Assembly (NCBI GenBank): GCA_025999455.1
Contig: AP024683.1
Span: 3,536,451 to 3,600,450 of the forward strand
DNA from: Geminicoccaceae bacterium
GTDB taxonomy: Bacteria; Pseudomonadota; Alphaproteobacteria; Geminicoccales; Geminicoccaceae
Length of the DNA stretch: 64,000 bases
Direction: 5' to 3'
The stretch's first letter is position 1, and each line of letters starts with the position of its first letter. The translations under genes were made by a program, and so were the position numbers. The notes below the pieces were generated by a model that was not told the DNA's origin, did not search any database, and saw only the letters and a list, made by a program, of their open reading frames with translations. Shown one piece after another: positions 27,121 through 39,133 of this stretch.

Positions 27121-28104
27121 TTGAGACGGGCCACCCGGCCACTCGCCGGGCTCCTCGCCGCGCTTTCGGGGCTCGCCGCGGCGAGCGTCGCCTTCGCCCA
27201 GGGCTTCGATCTCCAGGCCCATCGCGGCGGCCGCGGGCTCGCCCCCGAGAACAGCCTCGCCGCCTTCGGCCGCGCCCTCGCCCTCGGTGTCTCGACCCTC
27301 GAGCTCGACCTCGTCGTGAGCCGCGACGATCGGATCCTGATCGGCCACGACCTCGAGCTCGACCCGGCCAAGGTCCGCACCGCCGACGGCCGCTGGCTCG
27401 TGGCATCCGGCCCCGCGGTCCGCGCGCTCGATGCCGAGGCCTTGCGCCGGTTCGACGTCGGCCGCCTCGATCCCGAAAGCCGCTACGGGCGGCAATGGCC
27501 CGAACAGATGCCGGCGGACGGGGAGCGCATGCCGACCCTCGCCGAGCTCGCGGCCCTGCTCGAGGCGCGCGGTGCCCGGCACGTCCGGCTCTTCCTCGAG
27601 ACCAAGGTCCGGCCCGACCGGCCGGAGCTCTCCCCCGCCCCCGAGCGCTTCGCCGAGCTCCTGGTGGCCGAGCTGCGCCGGCTCGACCTTCTGCAGCGGA
27701 GCGCCGTGCAGAGCTTCGATTGGCGGACCTTGCGCGCCGTGCGCGCACTCGCCCCCGAGCTCCCGACCGCCTGCCTCACGGCTCGCCAGCGCTGGCTCGA
27801 CAATCTGGCCGACGGGAGCTGGACGGCGGGCCTGCGGCTCGAGGCGGTGGGCGGCAGCGTCCCGCGCCTCGTGGCCGCCGCGGGCTGCCGGATCTGGGCG
27901 CCCTTCCACGGCGATCTCGACCCGCTCGACATCCGCCGCGCCGAGCATCTCGGGCTCCGCGTCGTGCCTTGGACGGTCGACGAGCCCGCGCGGATGCGCG
28001 AGCTCCTGGGCCAAGGCGTGCACGGCCTGATCACCGATTACCCGGATCGGCTGCGGGCGGTCCTGGCCGCAATCGGCATGCCCTTGCCGCCGGCCTTCCC
28101 TTGA
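27121..28104 (+). CDS. Secreted glycerophosphodiester phosphodiesterase
   Basis: A GDPD-family enzyme that splits glycerophosphodiesters to glycerol 3-phosphate and an alcohol. The catalytic HRGGRGLAPENSLAAF, ELDLVVSRDD and FLETKVR motifs are all present. Starting at TTG 27121 gives a Sec signal peptide (LRRATRPLAGLLAALSGLAA, cleavage AFA-Q), so the enzyme is periplasmic. An ATG at 27055 is in frame but would overlap the divergent amn start and bury the signal, so I prefer 27121; the true start remains open. Confidence 0.88.
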   Translation: MRRATRPLAGLLAALSGLAAASVAFAQGFDLQAHRGGRGLAPENSLAAFGRALALGVSTLELDLVVSRDDRILIGHDLELDPAKVRTADGRWLVASGPAVRALDAEALRRFDVGRLDPESRYGRQWPEQMPADGERMPTLAELAALLEARGARHVRLFLETKVRPDRPELSPAPERFAELLVAELRRLDLLQRSAVQSFDWRTLRAVRALAPELPTACLTARQRWLDNLADGSWTAGLRLEAVGGSVPRLVAAAGCRIWAPFHGDLDPLDIRRAEHLGLRVVPWTVDEPARMRELLGQGVHGLITDYPDRLRAVLAAIGMPLPPAFP

Positions 28105-28147
28105 GCGAAGCGCGCGCCGGGATCCGCCCTTCGATCGGAGGAACGCC

Positions 28148-28987
28148 TTGGACCGCCCGAACCCGCCCCCCGCTCGGCTGCCCGAGACGCTCGAGATCGA
28201 CGCCTACGCCCCCGCCCAGATCGCCGACCGGGTCGAACGGGCCGGGGTCGCCAAGGCCCGGCTCCCGTTCCTGCAGACCTTCACGCTCGGCGTGCTCGCC
28301 GGCGCCTTCATCGCGCTCGGCGCCATGCTCTTCACGCTCGTCACGACCGACCACGGCATGGGCTTCGGCCCGGCCCGCTTTTTGGGCGGGATCGCCTTCT
28401 CGCTCGGGCTGATCATGGTCGCGATCGCCGGCGCCGAGCTCTTCACCGGCAACAATCTCCTCGTCATGGCCTGGGTCGACGGCCGGATCCGCCTCGCCGA
28501 GCTCGCCCGCAACTGGGCGATCGTCTACCTCGCCAACCTCGTGGGCGCGGTCGGCATGGCGGTACTCGTCCGGCTCGCCGACGGGCTGGCCCTGGGCCAG
28601 GGCCGGGTGCTCGAGACGGCGGCCGCGATCGCCCGGGCCAAGGTCGAGCTCGGGCCGGCCGAGGCCTTCTTCCGCGGCGTGCTCTGCAATCTCCTCGTCT
28701 GCATGGCCGTCTGGCTCTCCTTCGCGGCCCGCGAGGTGACCGGCAAGATCCTGGCGATCGTCTTCCCGATCTCGGCCTTCGTGGCCCTCGGCTTCGAACA
28801 TTCGATCGCCAACATGTACCTGATCCCGGTCGCCATGGTGCACGGCGTGCCGGGCGTGGGACTCGGCGGGCTGCTCGCCAACCTCGTCCCCGTGACCGCC
28901 GGCAACGTCGTGGGCGGCGGCGGCCTCGTGGCGCTCGCCTATTGGCTCTGCTACCGCCAGCAGCCGACCGTCGCCGGCAGTCGCTGA
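28148..28987 (+). CDS. Formate/nitrite channel family protein
   Basis: The 279-aa membrane protein is of the FocA/NirC family with six helices. Recognisable parts are KARLPFLQTFTLGVLAGAFIALG, the AELFTGNNLLVMA loop, GVLCNLLVCMAVWLSF and FEHSIANMYLIP, which line the anion pore. It probably conducts formate, nitrite or a similar small anion. TTG 28148 follows GGAGG at 28138. It is the last gene before a 2.2-kb gene-free stretch. Confidence 0.92.
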   Translation: MDRPNPPPARLPETLEIDAYAPAQIADRVERAGVAKARLPFLQTFTLGVLAGAFIALGAMLFTLVTTDHGMGFGPARFLGGIAFSLGLIMVAIAGAELFTGNNLLVMAWVDGRIRLAELARNWAIVYLANLVGAVGMAVLVRLADGLALGQGRVLETAAAIARAKVELGPAEAFFRGVLCNLLVCMAVWLSFAAREVTGKILAIVFPISAFVALGFEHSIANMYLIPVAMVHGVPGVGLGGLLANLVPVTAGNVVGGGGLVALAYWLCYRQQPTVAGSR

Positions 28988-31248
28988 CCTCACCGCGACC
29001 ACCCGTGGCGGCGACCGCGCGGCCGGCGGCCGCCGCCGATCTTCACCCGCCCGTCCGGCGGCGAGGATCGCGCGCGCCGCGCGAACCGTCCGGCCCTCCT
29101 CGCCCGGGCGTGGGAGGACTCCCGCGTCCCAGAGGCGGACGCGCGGCCTCGCCGCGGCGACGCACCACGCTCCGGGCCTAGACCCTTCTTTCGGTCTCGG
29201 CTCGCCGCGCGCGCTCCCGACCCGATCGCCTCCGGCTCTCGCAGGGTCTTCGGCGCACAGCCCGGACCCGATCCCCTTGGCGAGGCTCGGCGCCTCGGCG
29301 GCCGACGCTACGCCGGCGATCGCGCCGCCCACCCCTTCGCCGCCTCGCGCCCCGCGCGCCGGTGACCCGAGCACCTCTCGTTCCACGCGCGTCCGCGGCC
29401 GCGCCGCCGTACCAGCCCCGGGGAAGCTCGGCCCGCCGACCACCCACGACTCGATCCGAGTCCCCCGCCTTCCTGCGTCGTGGAGGCTGCCCCCTCAGAC
29501 CCGGGAGCGGCCTCCGTACGGGTCGGTGCCGCTTTCCGTCCGCACACCCGGCGCGACGCCTCGGCCCGCGGGTGGGCCCCGCTCCGAGGCCGAGCCCGCC
29601 ACCGGCTAGACACGCCCTCGGCGCGGGCCGGCGATCCGATCGACGCCAGCGCCCTCGCCTGTGGCTCGGCAGGCGTGTAGGACCCACCGCCTTCGCCGAG
29701 CCGCGGCCGGCCGACGGCCACGTCGACTCTCGAGCGCCCACCGCTCCCGCCTTTCGGCGACTCCGCGACGTCCGCCGCGAGACTGGCCTTGAGCAGCGGG
29801 TGCGCGGGTCGCTGCTCCTTTCTGTCCGCGCGCCCGGCGCGGCTCCCCGACCCGCCGCCGGACACGCTCCGAGGCCCAGCCCGCCTTCCACTCGGCACGA
29901 CCTCGCCGCGCGCAGCCAGCTCGAAGGGCTCTAGCTCCTCGGACCGATACCGCCGGGTACCCGAGACCCATCGCTCCACTGAGCCGCGGCCCACCGACGG
30001 CCAAATCACGAGCCGAACCCACACCGCTGCCGCCTCCTTGCGTCCTGGCGGCTCCCCCCGTCAGATCCGGGAGCGGCTTCGGCACGGGCCGGGGCCCCGG
30101 CGCTACGCCTCGGCCCGCGGGTGGTCCCCGCCCCGAGGCTGAGCCCACCAGCGCCCGGGCCCGACCTCACCGCCCAGCCCGCCGACCCTATCAGCTCCGA
30201 CTCATCGCCAGGCCTGAGCCAAGTGTGCAGGACCGATCGCCACCTGCCGAGCGGCGGCCGGTCGACGGCTCACCAGAGGCCGCGCCCCCCGCTCCCCCTT
30301 CCTGCGACCCGGAGACCGGCCCCCGTGAGACTGGCCTGGGGCGGCTTCCACTCGAGGCAGTGCTCCTCTGCAGTCGCGCACCCGGCGCGACGCCTCGATC
30401 CGCGGGTCGACCGGCTCCGAGGGCGAACCCGCCGGCCACTCGACACCACGTCGATGCGTGCGCCGCCGACCCTACAGCTCCCGCGCCTCGGAAGGTTGCG
30501 CCGGGTGTCGAGGACCTGTCGCCCCTGCCCCGGCCCGGCCGGTCCACCGCCCACGACTTGGCCCGAGCCCCACCGACCCTGCCTTCCTGCGACCGGAAGC
30601 CCAGTCTCGTGCGCCCGACCGCGAGTGGCATCCGGTCAGCTCGGTGCTCCTTTCCGTCCGCACGCCCGACCCGACGCCTCGACCCGCGGGCGCACCTGCT
30701 CCGAGGCCGCGCCCGCCAGCTCCCCGACAAGGCCCCGCCACGCGTACCGTCGACCCGACCGGATCCGGCTCCTCGCAAGGCCCCCGGCCGCCACCTCGCA
30801 CCGGAGCCCCCGGGACTCCCGCGCCTGGACGGATCACGGTCCCCCGATCACCCGGCTCCTCGGCTCCTCGGCTCCCCGCGCGCCTCCGCTTCTTCCAGAA
30901 CCCACCGCCGGCGAGCCACGGCCGGTCGATGGCCGACGCGCCGGGCCGATCCCGCGCTTCGGGTCCTGCAGCTCGGTGCCCCCGCAACGGCACCGGCCCC
31001 TCCGGCTTCCCGTGCGCGTGGCGCCGGACCTGCCGAGCGAGCGCCGAGGGCGAGGACCGGCCGTGCCGCAGCCCATGGGCCGACGGTCGGGCCCCGCTTC
31101 ACCGCGCCCCGACACTCGCGCCGAAGGCGCCCGCCCGAGGCGCACGCTCGCCTCGCCGCTGCCGTACACCCCGCTCGATCGGCAACGCCCGCGGTCGTTG
31201 CCGCCCCGATTCCCGCCTCACGGACGTTGACGATTCCTCAACTCGGCC
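28988..31248. other. Gene-free GC-rich stretch holding a degenerate repeat array
   Basis: No open frame here has a plausible start, codon bias or motif. Frames are open on both strands only because stops are rare at this GC content, and their translations are Arg/Pro/Ser/Ala-rich noise. The middle (about 29424-30950) is a degenerate tandem array described separately. The flanks 28988-29423 and 30951-31248 have the same texture and short echoes of the unit, but no clear copies. Confidence 0.75.
29424..30950. repeat. Degenerate tandem array, about five units of 265-286 bp
   Basis: Three landmarks recur in the same order. Landmark 1, GAGCCGCGGCCGGCCGACGG and variants, occurs at 29698, 29981, 30249, about 30531 and 30913, with a weaker copy near 29424. 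Landmark 2, a TGCTCCTTTCCGTCCGC-like run, occurs at about 29525, 29811, 30359 and 30643. Landmark 3, ACGCCTCGGCCCGCGGGTGG, is identical at 29556 and 30105 and variant at about 29840, 30390 and 30674. Spacings are 265-286 bp, except the last landmark-1 gap (about 382). In four units (29559, 30108, 30393, 30677) landmark 3 forms a hairpin, GCCTCG paired with CGAGGC or a close variant. The period is not a multiple of three, so no coding frame survives across units. Confidence 0.75.
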
Positions 31249-31869
31249 GTGGCAGACCCGAAACGACGGAGGTGGATGGTGGCCTCGAGCTCGTCGAGCG
31301 GGACGGCAACGGCGGAGCGGCGCGGACGCGGCGCGGTGCGGCGCCCCGCGGGTCGCGTGTCTGCCGCCGCCGCGTCCGGGACCGGCCGCGCCACGAGCCT
31401 GCGCCCCGTGCTCCTGGTGGTGGGCCTCCTCGCGCTCCTCGGGATCGGCGGCTGGTTCCTCGTCCGCGCGAGTACTCCCCCGCCCACGGCCCCGAAGACC
31501 CAGCAGCCGCACGATCCTTCTCGTGTTTATGCGGTCGCCGAGGCGATCGACCACCGCCAGATGCGGCCCGTCTGGGCCCTCCTCGAGATGGCCGGCCTCG
31601 AGCGGCTCTGCGAGAAAGCCCGCGCCTTCACCGTGTCGCGCCAGGTCGAAGGTCCGGGGGTGGTGCCGACCCGCTTCGTCGTCTATTGCCGCGACCAGGG
31701 CTTCTGGGTGGTCGAGGCCGACCCGGCGCGCGAGCGGTGGAGCACCGTCGGACCGCTCGCGACCCGCGAGGAAGCGGAAGCGGTCATCGACCGCGAGGGC
31801 GAGTTCCTCTGGGGCGCCCGTCCCCCCGGCCAGCGCGGCCTGGTGGGCGGGCTCGCCGCCGGCCGCTGA
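31249..31869 (+). CDS. Single-pass membrane protein of unknown function
   Basis: A 206-aa protein with a basic, Ser/Arg-rich cytoplasmic N-terminus (residues 1-50), one membrane helix (LRPVLLVVGLLALLGIGGWFLV, split here only by description) and an external domain of about 120 residues with the segments LLEMAGLERLCEKARAF and FVVYCRDQGFWVVEADPARERW. The two Cys residues of that domain may pair. No family is recognised. GTG 31249 lies at the right edge of the gene-free stretch, and the coding signature is clear from about codon 45. Confidence 0.65.
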   Translation: MADPKRRRWMVASSSSSGTATAERRGRGAVRRPAGRVSAAAASGTGRATSLRPVLLVVGLLALLGIGGWFLVRASTPPPTAPKTQQPHDPSRVYAVAEAIDHRQMRPVWALLEMAGLERLCEKARAFTVSRQVEGPGVVPTRFVVYCRDQGFWVVEADPARERWSTVGPLATREEAEAVIDREGEFLWGARPPGQRGLVGGLAAGR

Positions 31870-31977
31870 CCTTCGCGTCGCAGCGTCGGGGTGCGCCGTC
31901 GGGATGACGACAGGCGGCGGGCGGTCTATCTCTCGCGCCGCGCGGTCGAGCGCTGCGGGGTCTCGAGGAGGTAGGAG

Positions 31978-33195
31978 ATGCAGGCGAAAGCGGAGCAGAG
32001 CGGCTCGGTGGCGGCGGCGCGCGTGCCCTTCGATTGGGCCGACCCCTTGGCGCTCACCGACCAGCTCGACGAGGAGGAGCGTCAGATCGTCGAGGTCGCC
32101 CGGTCCTACGCCCACGAGCGGCTGATGCCGCGCGTCCTCGAGGCGTTCCGCCACGAACGGTTCGACCGGGCGATCTTCCATGAGCTCGGCGAACTGGGCT
32201 TCCTCGGCTCGACGCTCCCCGAGGAGTATGGCTGTGCCGGCGGCTCCTACGTCGCTTACGGGCTGATCGCCCGTGAGATCGAGCGGGTCGATTCGGGCTT
32301 CCGCTCGGCCATGAGCGTGCAGTCCTCGCTTGTCATGTACCCGATCTGGGCCTATGGCGACGAGCGCCAGCGCCGCCGCTGGTTGCCCAAGCTCGCCAAG
32401 GGCGAGCTCGTGGGCGCGTTCGGCCTCACCGAGCCCGACCACGGCTCCGATCCGGGCGGTATGCGCACGCGTGCCCGGCGCGTACCGGGGGGCTTCCGTC
32501 TCACCGGTACGAAGACCTGGATCACGAACGCGCCGATCTGCGATCTGGCGGTCGTCTGGGCCAAGGACGACGACGGCGAGATCCGCGGTTTCGTGATCGA
32601 ACGCGGCACCGAAGGCTTCGCGACGCCGGCAATCGAGGGCAAGTTCTCCTTGCGGGCCTCGACCACCGGACAGCTCGTCATGGACGAGGCCTTCGTCCCC
32701 GAAGAGAACCTCTTGCCCAACGTCAAGGGCCTCAAAGGCCCCTTCGGCTGCCTGAACCGGGCGCGCTACGGGATCGCCTGGGGCGCCATGGGTGCGGCCG
32801 AATTCTGCTGGCACGCCGCCCGCCGCTACACCCTCGACCGCAAGCAGTTCGGCCGGCCGCTCGCCGCCAACCAGTTGATCCAGAAGAAGCTCGCCGACAT
32901 GCAGACGGAAATCGCGCTGGGTCTCCAAGCTGCGCTCCGGGTCGGCCGGCTCATGGACGAGGGTCGCGTCGTGCCGGAGGCGATCTCGCTCGTCAAACGC
33001 AACAATTGCGGCAAGGCGCTCGAGATCGCGCGGCTGGCCCGCGACATGCACGGCGGCAACGGGATCGCCGACGAGTACCACGTGATCCGCCACGTGTTGA
33101 ACCTCGAGGCGGTCAACACCTACGAGGGCACGCACGACATTCACGCCTTGATCCTCGGGCGCGCCCAGACCGGGATTTCGGCCTTTTCCGGGTGA
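31978..33195 (+). CDS. gcdH: Glutaryl-CoA dehydrogenase
   Basis: A 405-aa acyl-CoA dehydrogenase of the decarboxylating glutaryl-CoA type, acting in lysine, tryptophan and aromatic breakdown. Family marks are [45 protein letters not shown] and the C-terminal [18 protein letters not shown] with the catalytic Glu and FAD contacts. ATG 31978 follows AGGAGGTAGGAG. It is alone between two non-coding stretches; no CoA-transferase or regulator is adjacent. Confidence 0.93.
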
Positions 33196-34521
33196 GACCA
33201 GCCGGCCGTTCGACGGGAGTCGGGCCGGCCCGCCGAGGGTCGGCCTGCGAACATCGTGGGCTGGGGCCGGCCCGGCTCGTCGCCGGACACGGCGCCGGTT
33301 CTGGATGCCGCGCGCCCGCGCTGCCGAACCGGCCTCGGGGCCTCTCGCACGCCGGGCGACGGTCGATCGCCGAGCGAGCCGATCGCCGCGACGCTGGCCT
33401 CCGAACGCTCGGCGGTGGAACGCGACCGCATGGTGCTCGAGGGTCGGCCCGGGCCCTCCGCCCACGATCTCGTCGGAACGCTCCGAGGTGGCCGGGCCGT
33501 CACACCGCTCGGCAGCGCCACCGACTGCGCGGTGGCGCGTGTGCTCCCGAGCGGCGTTCCGTAGACCACGACCGAACTCTCGATCGGCGCCGTCCGGCCG
33601 CGTCGAGAAGCGAACGGGCCGGTGCGCGGCGAAGGGGTGGTCCTCGATGCCGTCGGATACCTCGCGACCGCCGAAGGCCGGCTTTCGGATGTCGCCGACG
33701 CCCGGCTTCGGGCCCACGGTGCCACGGTCGGCACGATCTCGCCCCTCGACCGGGGCGGGCCCGATCGACCTGTCTCCCCGTGGACCGCGAACGCCCAGCA
33801 CGACGCCCACTCGCGGGCACTCGGGAACGCGCATGGCACTCCGCACCCGCTCGACAGCCGGAACGTCGATCGGATCGCAACTCGGCCGCTCCCGGTCGGC
33901 GGCGCGGTCGGCGGACCGGGTCTCGGCCGGCCGGACCCACGCGATCTCGGGCCTCCGCCCGCGCCGTCGACCCGCGAATCCCCGGTTCACGATCGGCGTC
34001 ACCGAAAGGCCGAAGGCAGGCTCGGCCCGGACGGTACCCAGAGCACCGGTCCTTCCGCGGAAGGGCCGGACCGCGTCGGCCTCGCTCGGCCGGAGCCACG
34101 AGCCGCGCGACACCGGGCTCGATCCGCGTGCAGCCTTGCGGTCCCGGCTCTCGGCCGAACAGATCGAACCGTGCCTGCGAGGCTCGGCCCGGGTCACGAG
34201 CCGGTGGATCCCGAACGAAGGTTCCGGCGGCGCTGCGGCATCTCCTCTCGGGGCCGAACCGCCCGGACGTCGATCGGCCTCCCGCTCGCCGGGGTTCGAA
34301 GCCGGTCGCAGCTCGGGCGGAGCCACGTGGCCTCGGTTCACGGCGGCGAGGACCGCAACCTGATCGACACCGACCCGCGGCCGTCCGCCGAGATCGCGTT
34401 CGAGCCGGTTCGTGACGATCTTCTTCACCGTGCATCCGCGGCCGCCGGCGTTCCGCCGGTCCCGCGGTCGCGGACCGTCGCGACCCGGCGCGACCCCGGG
34501 GAGGGACAGGAGAACCGAGCC
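33196..34521. other. Gene-free GC-rich stretch (1.3 kb)
   Basis: No frame has convincing coding character. Short phrases echo within it, such as CGGCCGGAGCCACG-like runs at 33925, 34085 and 34318. A CGGCCCGGGCCCTCCGCCCA run near 33445 resembles part of the array at 30531. No regular period is visible by eye. It may be decayed DNA or a more diverged relative of the 29-31 kb array. Confidence 0.6.
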
Positions 34522-35487
34522 GTGCGGGCGATCGCCGCCAGCTTCGCGCGCCTTGCGGTCGCGCGGCTCGCTCGTTGCTGGGGAGCGGGACCGCTGCGAG
34601 CCGGCGCGGCAACGGGCCCGCGCCGCCTCGGGTGGCGAGGCTGCGTCGCCGCCCTCCTCCTGGCCCTGCTCGCCGCCTGCGCCCGGGAGCGGCTGCCGCC
34701 CCCGGCCGCGGAGGAGGGCGCCCGCGTGCCGCTCCTCCTCGTCCGCCACGCCTGGCACACGGGGCTCGTGGTCCCGGCCACGGCCTTCCCGGAGACCTCG
34801 CCCTTCCGCGCTGCCTTTCCCGGCGCCGACTGGCTCGAGCTCGGCTGGGGCGACCGGCTCTTCTATCCGCACCCCGATCCGTCGCTCGCGACGGCGCTGC
34901 GGGCCGCGCTCTGGCCGACCCCGAGCACCCTCGCCCTCGCGGCCCATCGCGGCCCTGCCGAAACGGTCCCCGGCGAGGAGCTCTGGCTCCTCGAGGTCGG
35001 TGCCGCCGCGGTCGAGCGGCTCCATGCCCGCGCGCTCGCCACCCTCGAACTCGATGCGCAGGGGCGGCCGATCCCGGTCGCCGCCGGCCGCCGACCGAAC
35101 GAGCTCTTCTGGGCTTCGTCCGAGCCCTTCCACCTCTTGCGGACCTGCAACCGTTGGACGGCCGAGCTCCTGCGCGCCGCCGGGCTCCCGGTCGAGCCCG
35201 TCGGGATCGTGACGGCCGGCGACCTCCTGCGTCAGCTGGAGCCCTTCGCCAGACGGATCCGCCGCCGGCGGGCCCGGGCCGGCAGCGAGCCTGCCCGAGC
35301 GAGCCGAGGCCGGGGCGGTCCACGTAGTGCACGGCGGCGAGCGGCGCCGGGTGGCGGCGGGTGCGAGCACGACCGCGACACCCACCGCGGCGAGCACCGA
35401 ACCGAGAACCGCCGACAGAAGCAGCCAGAAAAGCACCGAGGCCGCGCTCCGCTCGTTCCTCGGCACGCTTGTCGCGCGAAAAGGTAA
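34522..35487 (+). CDS. DUF2459 (TIGR02117-type) lipoprotein-like protein
   Basis: The N-terminus holds a basic stretch and a hydrophobic segment ending LLALLAAC, a good lipobox. The DUF2459 domain follows from VPLLLVRHAWHTGLVVPA, through LELGWGDRLFYPHPD, to TCNRWTAELLRAAGLPV. Homologues are secreted proteins of unknown function, sometimes near urease genes. GTG 34522 has a purine-rich site upstream. The domain ends near codon 240, but the frame runs on for about 80 Arg/His-rich codons to 35487. That tail is unlike the family, so a normal stop may have been lost. Confidence 0.8.
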   Translation: MRAIAASFARLAVARLARCWGAGPLRAGAATGPRRLGWRGCVAALLLALLAACARERLPPPAAEEGARVPLLLVRHAWHTGLVVPATAFPETSPFRAAFPGADWLELGWGDRLFYPHPDPSLATALRAALWPTPSTLALAAHRGPAETVPGEELWLLEVGAAAVERLHARALATLELDAQGRPIPVAAGRRPNELFWASSEPFHLLRTCNRWTAELLRAAGLPVEPVGIVTAGDLLRQLEPFARRIRRRRARAGSEPARASRGRGGPRSARRRAAPGGGGCEHDRDTHRGEHRTENRRQKQPEKHRGRAPLVPRHACRAKR

Positions 35488-35585
35488 AGGAAACGTTGAC
35501 GATGGCGGCCCCGCGCCGGCCCCGCTCGACCGCCCGCGCGCGAGGCCCTATGCCCACCGCCGCACGGGCTGGCGGCGAGGGCGCG

Positions 35586-36839
35586 ATGGGCGAAGGGCTG
35601 CGGATCGCGGTGATCGGCGCGGGGATCGTCGGGACGTCCTGCGCGTTCTTCCTGCAGCGCGACGGCCACCGCGTGACGCTCTTGGACCCGCGCGAGCCCG
35701 GCACCGGCACCTCCTTCGGCAATGCCGGGATCATCAGCCTGGGCTCGGTGGCCCCGGTCGTGACCCCGGGCCTGTTGCGCAAGCTGCCGGCGCTCTTGAC
35801 CGATCGCACCAGCCCGCTCGCCATCCGCTGGGCCTATCTGCCGCGCCTTCTGCCCTGGCTCTCGCGCCTCGCCCTCAACGCCCGCCCGGCGCGGCTCGAG
35901 CGGCTCGCGTCGGCGATCGCCGAGCTCACCGCCCGCTGCGACCGCGCCCACGACCTCCTGATCCAGGAATGCGGTCTCGGCGAGCTCGTGCGCTCCGGCG
36001 GCTGGCTCTGGGTGGCGCGCTCGCCGGCGACGTTGCTCGAGGCGAGCGCCACGAACCGCCGGCTCTGGGACCGCTTCGGCCGGCGCTACGAGCTCCTCGA
36101 CGCGGCCGCGGTCCACGCGCTCGAGCCGGCCCTCGCCCCCGATCTGGTGGCCGGGCTGCTCCTCCCCGAGAACCGCTTCGTTCTCGACCCCTGCCGCTAC
36201 GTCCAGGGCATCGCCCGCGGCTTCCTCGAGCGCGGCGGCACCTACCTGCAAGCGGAGGCCGAGGGCTTCGCCTTCGAGGGCTCGCGGATCGCCGCGGTCG
36301 GCACGAGCCGCGGCCTTTTGCCGGTCGACGGCGTGGTGCTCGCAGCCGGCGCCTTCTCGAAGCGCCTCGCGGCGCTCGGTGGCGTGCGCGTGCCGCTCGA
36401 TGCCGAACGCGGCTATCACGTGATGCTGCCGCACCCACCCTCGAGCCTCGGCCGGCCGATCTACGCCTGCGAGCACGGCTTCGTGATGGCGCCCATGGCA
36501 GCCGGCATCCGGATCACGGGCGGGGTCGAGCTCGCGAGCCCCTGGGCGCCGCCCGACTTCCGCCGCATCCGCCGTCTCGTGCCCTTGGCGCAGCGCCTCT
36601 TGCCCGGCCTTTCGGGCGAGATCCTCTCCGAATGGCAGGGCTGCCGGCCGACGCTCGTCGACAGCCTACCGGCGATCGGCCCGAGCCCCACGACGCCCAA
36701 TCTCTGGCTCGCTTTCGGCCACCAGCACATCGGCCTCACGCTCGGTCCGCTCACCGGCCGGCTGATCGCCGACCTCGTGGCCGGCCGCGACCCGGGCTTC
36801 GACCTTTCCGCTTACGCGCCGGGCCGGGAGTATTGGTGA
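35586..36839 (+). CDS. FAD-dependent D-amino-acid dehydrogenase-like oxidoreductase
   Basis: A 417-aa DAO-family flavoprotein. The FAD-binding motif IAVIGAGIVGTSCAFFLQRDG starts at about residue 6, followed by GTGTSFGNAGIIS. The C-terminal flavin-binding part WLAFGHQHIGLTLGPLTGRLIADLVAG is typical of DadA-like enzymes. It would oxidise a D-amino acid or a related secondary amine and pass electrons to the membrane. ATG 35586 is chosen because it opens directly onto the dinucleotide fold with GAGGG upstream. Confidence 0.9.
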   Translation: MGEGLRIAVIGAGIVGTSCAFFLQRDGHRVTLLDPREPGTGTSFGNAGIISLGSVAPVVTPGLLRKLPALLTDRTSPLAIRWAYLPRLLPWLSRLALNARPARLERLASAIAELTARCDRAHDLLIQECGLGELVRSGGWLWVARSPATLLEASATNRRLWDRFGRRYELLDAAAVHALEPALAPDLVAGLLLPENRFVLDPCRYVQGIARGFLERGGTYLQAEAEGFAFEGSRIAAVGTSRGLLPVDGVVLAAGAFSKRLAALGGVRVPLDAERGYHVMLPHPPSSLGRPIYACEHGFVMAPMAAGIRITGGVELASPWAPPDFRRIRRLVPLAQRLLPGLSGEILSEWQGCRPTLVDSLPAIGPSPTTPNLWLAFGHQHIGLTLGPLTGRLIADLVAGRDPGFDLSAYAPGREYW

Positions 36840-37617: not shown

Positions 37618-37649
37618 CCGCTCGCTTCGGACCCGTCACCCACACCCGG

Positions 37650-37669
37650 TGATACGGCACTCCGTATCA
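37650..37669. promoter_or_regulatory. Operator palindrome of the higBA operon
   Basis: TGATACGGCACTCCGTATCA is a perfect inverted repeat (8-bp arms, 4-bp centre) lying 33 bp upstream of the toxin start. Palindromes of the form TGATACGGnnnnCCGTATCA are typical binding sites for HigA-type repressors. I infer autoregulation. Confidence 0.7.
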
Positions 37670-37863
37670 GACCGATCGATCGGGCCCGCTCGAGGCGGTC
37701 TCGGCGGACCCACGCCAGCCCCGAGCGGCGTGCGCCGCAGGCACCCACGACCGGCCGCGAGCCTCACCGCCCGCCGGCGGCAGCGAGGGTGCGGTCGAGG
37801 GCCTCGACCCGTGGCCGCGTGGCTCGTCGAGGGTCGGGCGAACGTCCCGGACGAATCCCCACC

Positions 37864-38925
37864 TCAGCGCCTCGGCAGCGGTCCTTCGAGGGTGAGCCCG
37901 AGGTGCTCGAACCCTTCACGCAAGCTCGCGAGATGGTCGGGATCGGGCGCGACGCGGGCGAGGCTCGGGATCTCGCGCCCCGGTCGCGTCCAGCCCAAGC
38001 CTTCGCCGAGATGGACCTCGTCCTTCCGGCTCGGGTCACGGGGCGGCGGGAGGCCGCGCAATCGAAAGGGCGCTCCGGCGAGCTCGAAACGGGGCTCGTC
38101 CGCTTCTCTCGCCGCGCTGAAGTCCACTCCCGCCGCAAGGACGAATATCGCGCGGGTCCAGCGCGATAGTCCCAAGAGCCCGAGTGCGCCGAAGCGCTCC
38201 CACACGTCGTCGCCGACGATCCGTTCGAGTCGACTTTCGACCGCGTCCACGGAGTCGGGCCGGCGATCGCCCGCCAAGCTGTCCGCATGGAACGATTGGA
38301 GGATCACGGACCGAGAGCCACGACGGGTGGTGGCGCTCGACGTGCACCCCCCCAGCCGTTGCAGTTCTTCGGCCGCCTCGCGATCGAGTCGAGAGAGAAT
38401 GTCGAGGGTCTGCAGCGCAACCGAACCGGGACGGCGGGCCTCGCGCGCCAGGACCCGACCCCACAGCCGTTGCAGATCGGCATTCGAGACATCCTGCGCG
38501 AGGCGCCAGAAGCGGTCGATCCATTCGTCGGTGAGACGGGCCCCGGTCGCTCCCTTTCCTTCCTTTCCTTCCTCGCTCACGCCGCCGCGCCATTCCTCGA
38601 TGGCTTCGATCGCCACGGGCTCACGGTTGCGTTGCTGGCGACGCAACTCTTTGGAGACGTGGAGACGCACCCGACCGTCCAAGTCGAGTAGAGCTTCCAT
38701 GGAGACGGGAACGTCGTCCCAAGACGACACCGCCTCCTTCGAGAGGCTCAGAATGTCGACCGAGGCCTTCGCTTGCCGCCGCCGGAGCCACGGCCCGAAA
38801 CCGTGGCCGAGACCAACCCGGGTCGCTCGCACGAGCTCGACCGCGAACTCCCGCAGACCGAGTAGGTCCGATATCTCCACGACCGAGCGATCCGGCGGCG
38901 TAGCTTTCTCGCTTTCGTCGGGCAT
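37864..38925 (-). CDS. DUF2806 domain protein
   Basis: A 353-aa protein with the DUF2806 core: TDEWIDRFWRLAQDVSNADL and LWGRVLAREARRPGSVALQTLDILSRLD near residues 135-185. The N-terminal half is helical and basic. The family has no known function and is often found in accessory regions, sometimes with phage or defence genes. Codon use is less GC-biased than in core genes here, suggesting transfer. ATG 38925 is the only sensible start. It lies 250 bp upstream of the HigBA pair on the same strand. Confidence 0.75.
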   Translation of the reverse strand: MPDESEKATPPDRSVVEISDLLGLREFAVELVRATRVGLGHGFGPWLRRRQAKASVDILSLSKEAVSSWDDVPVSMEALLDLDGRVRLHVSKELRRQQRNREPVAIEAIEEWRGGVSEEGKEGKGATGARLTDEWIDRFWRLAQDVSNADLQRLWGRVLAREARRPGSVALQTLDILSRLDREAAEELQRLGGCTSSATTRRGSRSVILQSFHADSLAGDRRPDSVDAVESRLERIVGDDVWERFGALGLLGLSRWTRAIFVLAAGVDFSAAREADEPRFELAGAPFRLRGLPPPRDPSRKDEVHLGEGLGWTRPGREIPSLARVAPDPDHLASLREGFEHLGLTLEGPLPRR

Positions 38926-39133
38926 CGGTTTCGGTCTCCGAGCGACCTGACCAACGATATCAACGAATTCGGCTTCGGCCGACCCTCCGGAAGATCCTCG
39001 CGTCCCGATCCCTACCAGCGGAGCGGCAACCGCAGGCCGAGAGCCTGCCGCCGGTCCCCTCGGGGATGCGGGAATCGGTTCGAGATCCGCCAGGGACGCA
39101 GTCGAGGTGGAGCTCTTTCGGGCCCCGACTCGC

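Follow-up and report, generated by a model that had tools for sequence, protein, structure and literature searches.

Deletion is commonly held to keep the intergenic DNA of bacteria short, and the units of bacterial VNTRs and minisatellites are near-identical and usually shorter than those described here. Other intergenic repeats are of the REP/BIME/REPIN, CRISPR and integron types, and eukaryotic satellite DNA is subject to unequal exchange. The accessible parts of a report on archaeal Borg elements (PMC9879509) describe tandem repeats that are of independent origin, are genome-specific and have partial repeats at their flanks. These repeats can begin in the end of an ORF, and about half lie inside ORFs; they are perfectly repeated, with units of 18-21 nt in one example, and are carried on extrachromosomal elements.

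The locus compared here lies between FNT, a formate/nitrite transporter gene, and HYP, a small hypothetical gene, in a 64,000-nt stretch of a Geminicoccaceae genome, the whole of which we call the window (Table 1). The array in this gap shares with eukaryotic satellite DNA a middle that is more homogeneous than the edges, a strong two-unit offset and a probable course of birth and decay, but the arrays of this bacterium have only ~3-8 units and lie beside genes. It resembles REP/BIME/REPIN, CRISPR and integron arrays in being an intergenic repeat; it differs from them in that we found no dispersed unit copies, no spacers and no cassettes, and none of the flanking genes checked has a function of these types. 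In behavior, the array reads as closest to the Borg tandem repeats. The resemblance lies in the occurrence of independent, genome-specific arrays, in repeats that can begin in the end of an ORF, in flanking partial repeats, in a strand composition bias (A-enriched in Borgs, C-enriched here) and in an intergenic Borg example that is likewise missing in a close relative, whereas Borg units are error-free and the arrays here have diverged units of ~190-290 bp and are chromosomal and noncoding (PMC9879509). Our literature search, which covered titles and abstract openings, found no description of such arrays in bacteria.

Table 1. Positions of the main array, its units and surroundings, and three further arrays of the genome (window coordinates unless a locus is named)
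Feature	Position	Strand	Repeat offset, identity	Evidence or remarks
FNT, formate/nitrite transporter gene	28148-28987	+		Pfam Form_Nir_trans 3.8e-76; stop codon is left border of array region
Whole degenerate tandem array (lineage-specific intergenic expansion)	28988-31225	+		Self-alignment, composition, missing in 4 spanning congeners
Two decayed upstream units	29134-29341, 29348-29494	+		Profile 26.5 and 15.9 bits; neither in profile
Core unit u2	29501-29786	+		Profile 179 bits
55-bp slowly changing core of u2, holds imperfect hairpin	29546-29600	+		Divergence 0.197 vs. 0.382 for all columns
Core unit u3	29787-30066	+		Profile 169 bits
Core unit u4	30067-30334	+		Profile 146 bits; 17-column gap in alignment
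Core unit u5	30335-30618	+		Profile 168 bits
Core unit u6	30619-30902	+		Profile 147 bits
Homologous cores in u3-u6	29832-29885, 30096-30149, 30380-30433, 30664-30717	+		Read off unit alignment
Decayed downstream material	30903-31225	+		30903-31230 vs. core: z 3.5, 0/300 shuffles as high
GTTGACGATTCCTCAAC, right border of array	31226-31242			Junction comparison with congeners
HYP, small hypothetical gene	31249-31869	+		No Pfam match; true start uncertain, 31249 to 31357
Acyl-CoA dehydrogenase gene, conserved neighbor	31978-33195	+		Pfam; same order in congeners spanning it
L128 array, ~3 units	L128:15573-16164		~195-198, 69%	Between convergent MFS-like and peptide-binding-protein-like genes
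L186 array, ~5 units	L186:10983-12539		~189, 72%	Between hexapeptide-type and lysine-tRNA-ligase-like genes
L187 array	L187:1283-3185		~198, 86% by self-alignment	Between lutB-like and lutC-like genes

Extent and composition of the main array

Self-alignment of 28988-31248 gave 368 bits at an offset of ~279 (29009-30591 vs. 29288-30880, 61% identity), compared with a best off-diagonal score of 91.1 in 100 first-order Markov shuffles; no window tile outside the array exceeded 86.8 bits. This dot-plot-type comparison bore out a sequence-only reading of the window, which had proposed a tandem array with a period near 283 bp. That reading had placed the array at 29424-30950; the array is real there but larger, extending from the FNT stop codon to 31225. 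Five core units of ~283 bp each (29501-30902) differ pairwise at 0.30-0.45 of sites, with a mean of 0.38, and their starts lie 286, 280, 268 and 284 bp apart. The 20-mers at 29556 and 30105 are identical, as had been claimed. Since the unit profile was built from these five units, their scores (146-179 bits) are high by construction. In the self-similarity of the array, the two-unit offset of 549 is nearly as strong as the one-unit offset of 284.

The edges of the array are more decayed than its center (29222-29400 and 30903-31230 aligned to the core with z 3.8 and 3.5, respectively), and local alignment to the core failed to recognize the leftmost part, 29009-29221 (z 0.5). Recognizable repeats start ~150 bp after the FNT stop codon. 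An extension of the units into 31220-31430 was rejected, as the weak, phase-consistent similarity found there was not significant (z 1.1, 0.3 and 0.6). A large VNTR was the nearest of the readings proposed earlier, and the array does have the head-to-tail copies at one locus and the lineage specificity of bacterial VNTRs and minisatellites. Its units, however, are far too diverged, it is one of several independent arrays, and Tandem Repeats Finder, which had been suggested as a check, reported no row with its period.

Positional G+C is flat in the array (.75/.78/.78, vs..72/.47/.96 in FNT) and in the unit consensus (.78/.77/.78); the four neighboring genes checked were not flat. This flat composition of array and consensus excludes a coding origin or decayed repeat protein, and the earlier description of the array as noncoding and spacer-free holds.

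One part of the unit changes slowly: in a 55-bp core (alignment columns 46-100), unit pairs differ by a mean of 0.20, compared with 0.43 in the rest of the unit. The best 55-column window, of a size chosen after the data had been seen, was matched by 0 of 5,000 column permutations and by 12 of 5,000 block permutations, and base composition accounts for little of the slowness (saturation 0.617 vs. 0.680). This slow core is our main result against pure neutral decay. The hairpin that the sequence-only reading had described in each copy checked has its outer arms, GCCTCG/CGAGGC, intact in three of the five core units and broken in two. None of its 11 pairs changed on both sides, i.e., there was no covariation across units. 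RNAalifold gave the units an unfavorable covariation term of +7.76 kcal/mol; of the 60 pairs it predicted, 11 show some two-sided change. Folding of two units yielded z-scores of -0.30 and -0.22, like those of shuffles, although both fold strongly in absolute terms. Given the lack of covariation in the 11 hairpin pairs and the shuffle-like folding of two units, the hairpin is an imperfect palindrome that lies in slowly changing sequence, and an RNA structure is not demonstrated. An Rfam search of 28000-36000 returned two sub-gathering matches, both outside the array, and none within it; with the covariation and folding results as they are, the tandem structured RNAs suggested earlier are not supported.

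Relatives and age of the array

FNT was present in all five congeners searched, and the four that span the FNT-HYP site (G001, G003, G004 and G005) have no array there; the contig of the fifth, G002, stops ~120 bp past FNT. Alignable HYP starts 180-390 bp after the FNT match in the spanning congeners, compared with 2.4-2.5 kb for the same residues here. The N-terminal part of HYP is not alignable between species, and matches start at residues 47-89. In the nearest sister, G004, GTTGACGATTCCTCAAC contains the FNT stop codon; in the window, the same sequence starts at 31226, at the right border of the array, and FNT has its own TGA stop at the left border.

As the sequence-only reading had proposed, we searched for the unit elsewhere, using the profile. 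Beyond the array it gave no convincing match in the genome, a single contig of 3.76 Mb in which 150 of 3,491 first-look candidates were scored (next match 8.5 bits, E 3.6), and no copy in 20 relatives, with up to 89 candidates scored per genome. BLAST matched the array in 26 of 59 relatives (E 2e-6 to 1e-3) and at three short places elsewhere in its own genome (31-53 bp); these matches, 24-102 bp long and scattered, were taken as chance, since the profile finds no unit in the 20 relatives. Plasmids and phages gave no match to the array at E 1e-5, and none of four viral contigs with the core pattern carries a unit. A chromosome-wide binding or partition array, another of the earlier suggestions, is unlikely given that no second unit copy was found in the genome and that congeners lack the array.

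Four genes, the fourth of them partial, differ from G004 at 0.27, 0.29, 0.34 and 0.33 of their fourfold-degenerate sites, and the mean unit divergence of 0.38 is somewhat above this range. By a rough age correction with saturation near 0.51 and 0.67, the age of the array would roughly equal or somewhat exceed that of the split from G004, if noncoding and fourfold sites evolve alike. Because mean unit divergence exceeds the sister divergence, the array could predate the split, with later loss in relatives.

Elsewhere in the window, 33196-34521 and 37618-39133 are further long intergenic regions without clear repeats, and the former looks longer than the corresponding gap in G005; both are possibly older, fully decayed expansions. 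The intergenic stretch 34327-34382 gave a sub-threshold match to the L31-Actinobacteria leader (29.5 bits; gathering threshold 35).

Further arrays in the same genome

We sampled 60 stretches of 20 kb, about one third of the genome, and looked for arrays in those intergenic regions that reach 280 bp or more, which were delimited with a simple codon-usage gene caller made for the analysis. The first sample and the window yielded 36 regions, two of which were arrays (z 43 and 24); the others all scored below 2. This test did not include L124, which belongs to the first 20 stretches. No new region above z 6.1 was seen among 35 in the second sample, which include some from four extra loci, one re-covering the L128 array. 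In the third sample, two of 51 regions were arrays (z 91 and 83) and two were weaker (z 6.8 and 5.8). Congener intergenic regions, from small samples of fragmented assemblies, gave nothing above z 6.5 in G005 and G003 (0/45) or above z 1.7 in G004 (0/10).

Some weaker signals were left uncounted. The regions L162:16264-17689, L182:4369-7787 and L189:14089-15083 have weak internal repeats (z 5.8-6.8) and are possible old arrays or missed genes; L178 (z 3.6) and, in G005, L200 and L201 (z 5.1 and 6.5) are weaker candidates. Two of 41 intergenic regions scored high in G008, a member of the family, and were not of the same kind as the arrays: L250:2316-2985 contains repeats 94% identical at an offset of 84 bp, and the other is a distant repeat pair.

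The three further arrays lie between genes whose names we assigned by reading translations (Table 1). L187 is the least diverged, with 198-bp units, a 66-bp sub-period and 92% matches in Tandem Repeats Finder. The main-unit profile matched none of the three. All four expanded regions are directly 3' of a gene, with recognizable repeats starting ~10 bp or less after the stop at L128 and L186 and ~300 bp after it at L187, and none lies between divergent genes, though in the first sample and the window such genes border 31 of the 79 intergenic regions that are 150 bp or longer. The L128 array is missing in both readable congeners (G002 and G004), where the stops overlap as TGATCA. The L186 and L187 arrays are each missing in all four readable congeners (G001-G004), where the gene pair is ~150 bp or less apart; G005 was not among the genomes searched for these two sites.

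The L186 array holds four matches to the tail of its upstream gene, with scores of 27, 20, 26 and 23 (99% of the null, 17), with the caveat that the highest null score, 27, is as high as the best of these and that, of three tails from congeners, only one outscored all of its shuffles. The whole tail scored z 5.9, and segments of that gene lying upstream of the tail scored z -0.4 to 0.1. At L187, three decayed copies of the first ~100 bp of the lutC-like gene precede the real start (scores 32, 80 and 41; null maximum 25). Two of the four arrays, L186 and L187, thus visibly include a gene edge in the copied segment, which points to tandem duplication in place. The L128 array showed a moderate match to the tail of the MFS gene (z 5.3-6.7, with other MFS segments at z 3.2 and 4.0); the match was not seen with congener MFS tails (z 2.7 and -0.8). 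Some of these links between array and gene are thus weak, and at L187 the 198-bp units begin only ~300 bp past the stop codon. In the main array, no piece of FNT, HYP, GDPD, the acyl-CoA dehydrogenase gene or congener FNT/HYP was recognizable (z -0.6 to 1.6, with one congener stretch at z 2.2), and no source of the unit was found in FNT, HYP or their neighbors on either strand, so that an in-place origin of the main array rests on analogy. Because the N-terminal part of HYP cannot be aligned between species, our guess is that a seed taken from it could have become unrecognizable.

We dropped the motif GCCTCGRYCC...CGAGGC, which occurs in main-array units and also at L128, as a family linking the arrays, despite 31 genome hits compared with 2 for the reversed control. 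In the first sample and the window, GCCTCGAYCC had 54 hits, 46 of which lie in sequence with a coding-like frame contrast above 0.2; the motif was not evident by eye in L186 and L187, and the main profile misses the other arrays.

Origin and possible roles

We consider it probable, at roughly two chances in three, that the main array is a lineage-specific, noncoding expansion that was born in the FNT-HYP gap near the sister split, has undergone largely neutral decay and is one outcome of a broader process acting on this genome. In such a process, segments of ~190-290 bp beside a gene edge would be duplicated head to tail, slippage or unequal exchange would raise the number of copies, and the older ones would decay, as in eukaryotic satellite DNA. 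Unit divergence lies somewhat above the fourfold-site divergence from G004, as would suit an array born close to the time of that split and decaying ever since outside the core. We infer the duplication by slippage or unequal exchange, the neutral decay and, for the main array, the same mode of origin as for the others. Neither the slow 55-bp core nor the bias toward C over G on the sense strand is accounted for by neutral decay alone.

The plus strand of 28988-31248 is 45.8% C and 31.2% G, and all four arrays are C-rich and G-poor on the sense strand of the upstream gene (GC skew -0.19, -0.14, -0.11 and -0.09; ranks 1, 2, 3 and 6 in a set of 44 3'-type intergenic regions, each 500 bp or longer). 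The arrays had already been found when this bias came to notice, and some shorter regions are equally skewed. The bias may be a cause, a consequence or a survivor effect. One reading of it is a Rho-loading, rut-like terminator array, in which C-rich, G-poor RNA past the stop codon would load Rho and shield the next gene, with more copies strengthening the effect. Following the rut criterion of RhoTermPredict (78-nt window, C>G, C every 11-13 nt; PMC6407284), in a simplified form that omits the pause-site step, 94% of windows in the main array qualified on the plus strand and 1% on the minus strand, compared with 39% on average in 40 control regions, which were other 3'-type intergenic stretches of 500 bp or more; the other three arrays reached 75-94%. 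Windows with C at least 1.5 times G made up 49% of the main array, above the maximum of 32% in the 40 controls, but 17-28% of the other three arrays, inside the control range. A consensus scan found no promoter-like site in the array region and no T-tailed terminator-like one, the latter result being in line with Rho-dependent termination. However, Rho prefers unstructured RNA and the units fold strongly, though no more so than shuffles; congeners manage without the array, and other 3' regions of the genome have no mean skew. We regard a rut-like terminator array as quite unlikely, and any rut-like or binding role of the array is speculative.

The slow core, which stands out from the rest of the unit and is seldom rivaled in permutations, could instead mark a putative protein-binding or structural site selected in several copies, with the rest of the unit as spacer. 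Local gene conversion could likewise keep this stretch alike, and with a core window sized post hoc, a hairpin that shows broken arms and no compensatory change, and a single locus that is missing in congeners, such a functional array seems distinctly improbable. We also think it unlikely that the array formed elsewhere, on a mobile element or plasmid, and was put in after the FNT stop codon. The unit has no local source, the array is lineage-specific, and CG(C/T)TGA occurs at both ends like a target duplication, a match so short that it may be chance; against insertion, no second copy was found in the genome, plasmids, phages and the viral contigs gave none, and in two of the other arrays the derivation from neighboring genes is visible. 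The tandem, intergenic, single-orientation arrangement would also suit small structured RNAs, like sRNA arrays downstream of genes. Such RNAs are highly improbable in view of the Rfam, covariation and folding results and of the consensus scan. Finally, the arrays may come from a strand-aware, ongoing process of this lineage, a satellite-DNA cycle in bacteria, that builds C-rich arrays 3' of genes by copying gene edges in tandem again and again, some copies being kept, as the 55-bp core and the C>G bias may indicate, perhaps as Rho-loading or binding sites; this we hold to be unlikely.

Under the preferred reading, an expansion by tandem duplication with largely neutral decay, the several independent, long arrays of this genome, which stand at differing degrees of decay, form a natural series for the birth, tandem spread and decay of noncoding DNA, and the strand bias and the slow core make retention for termination or binding testable.
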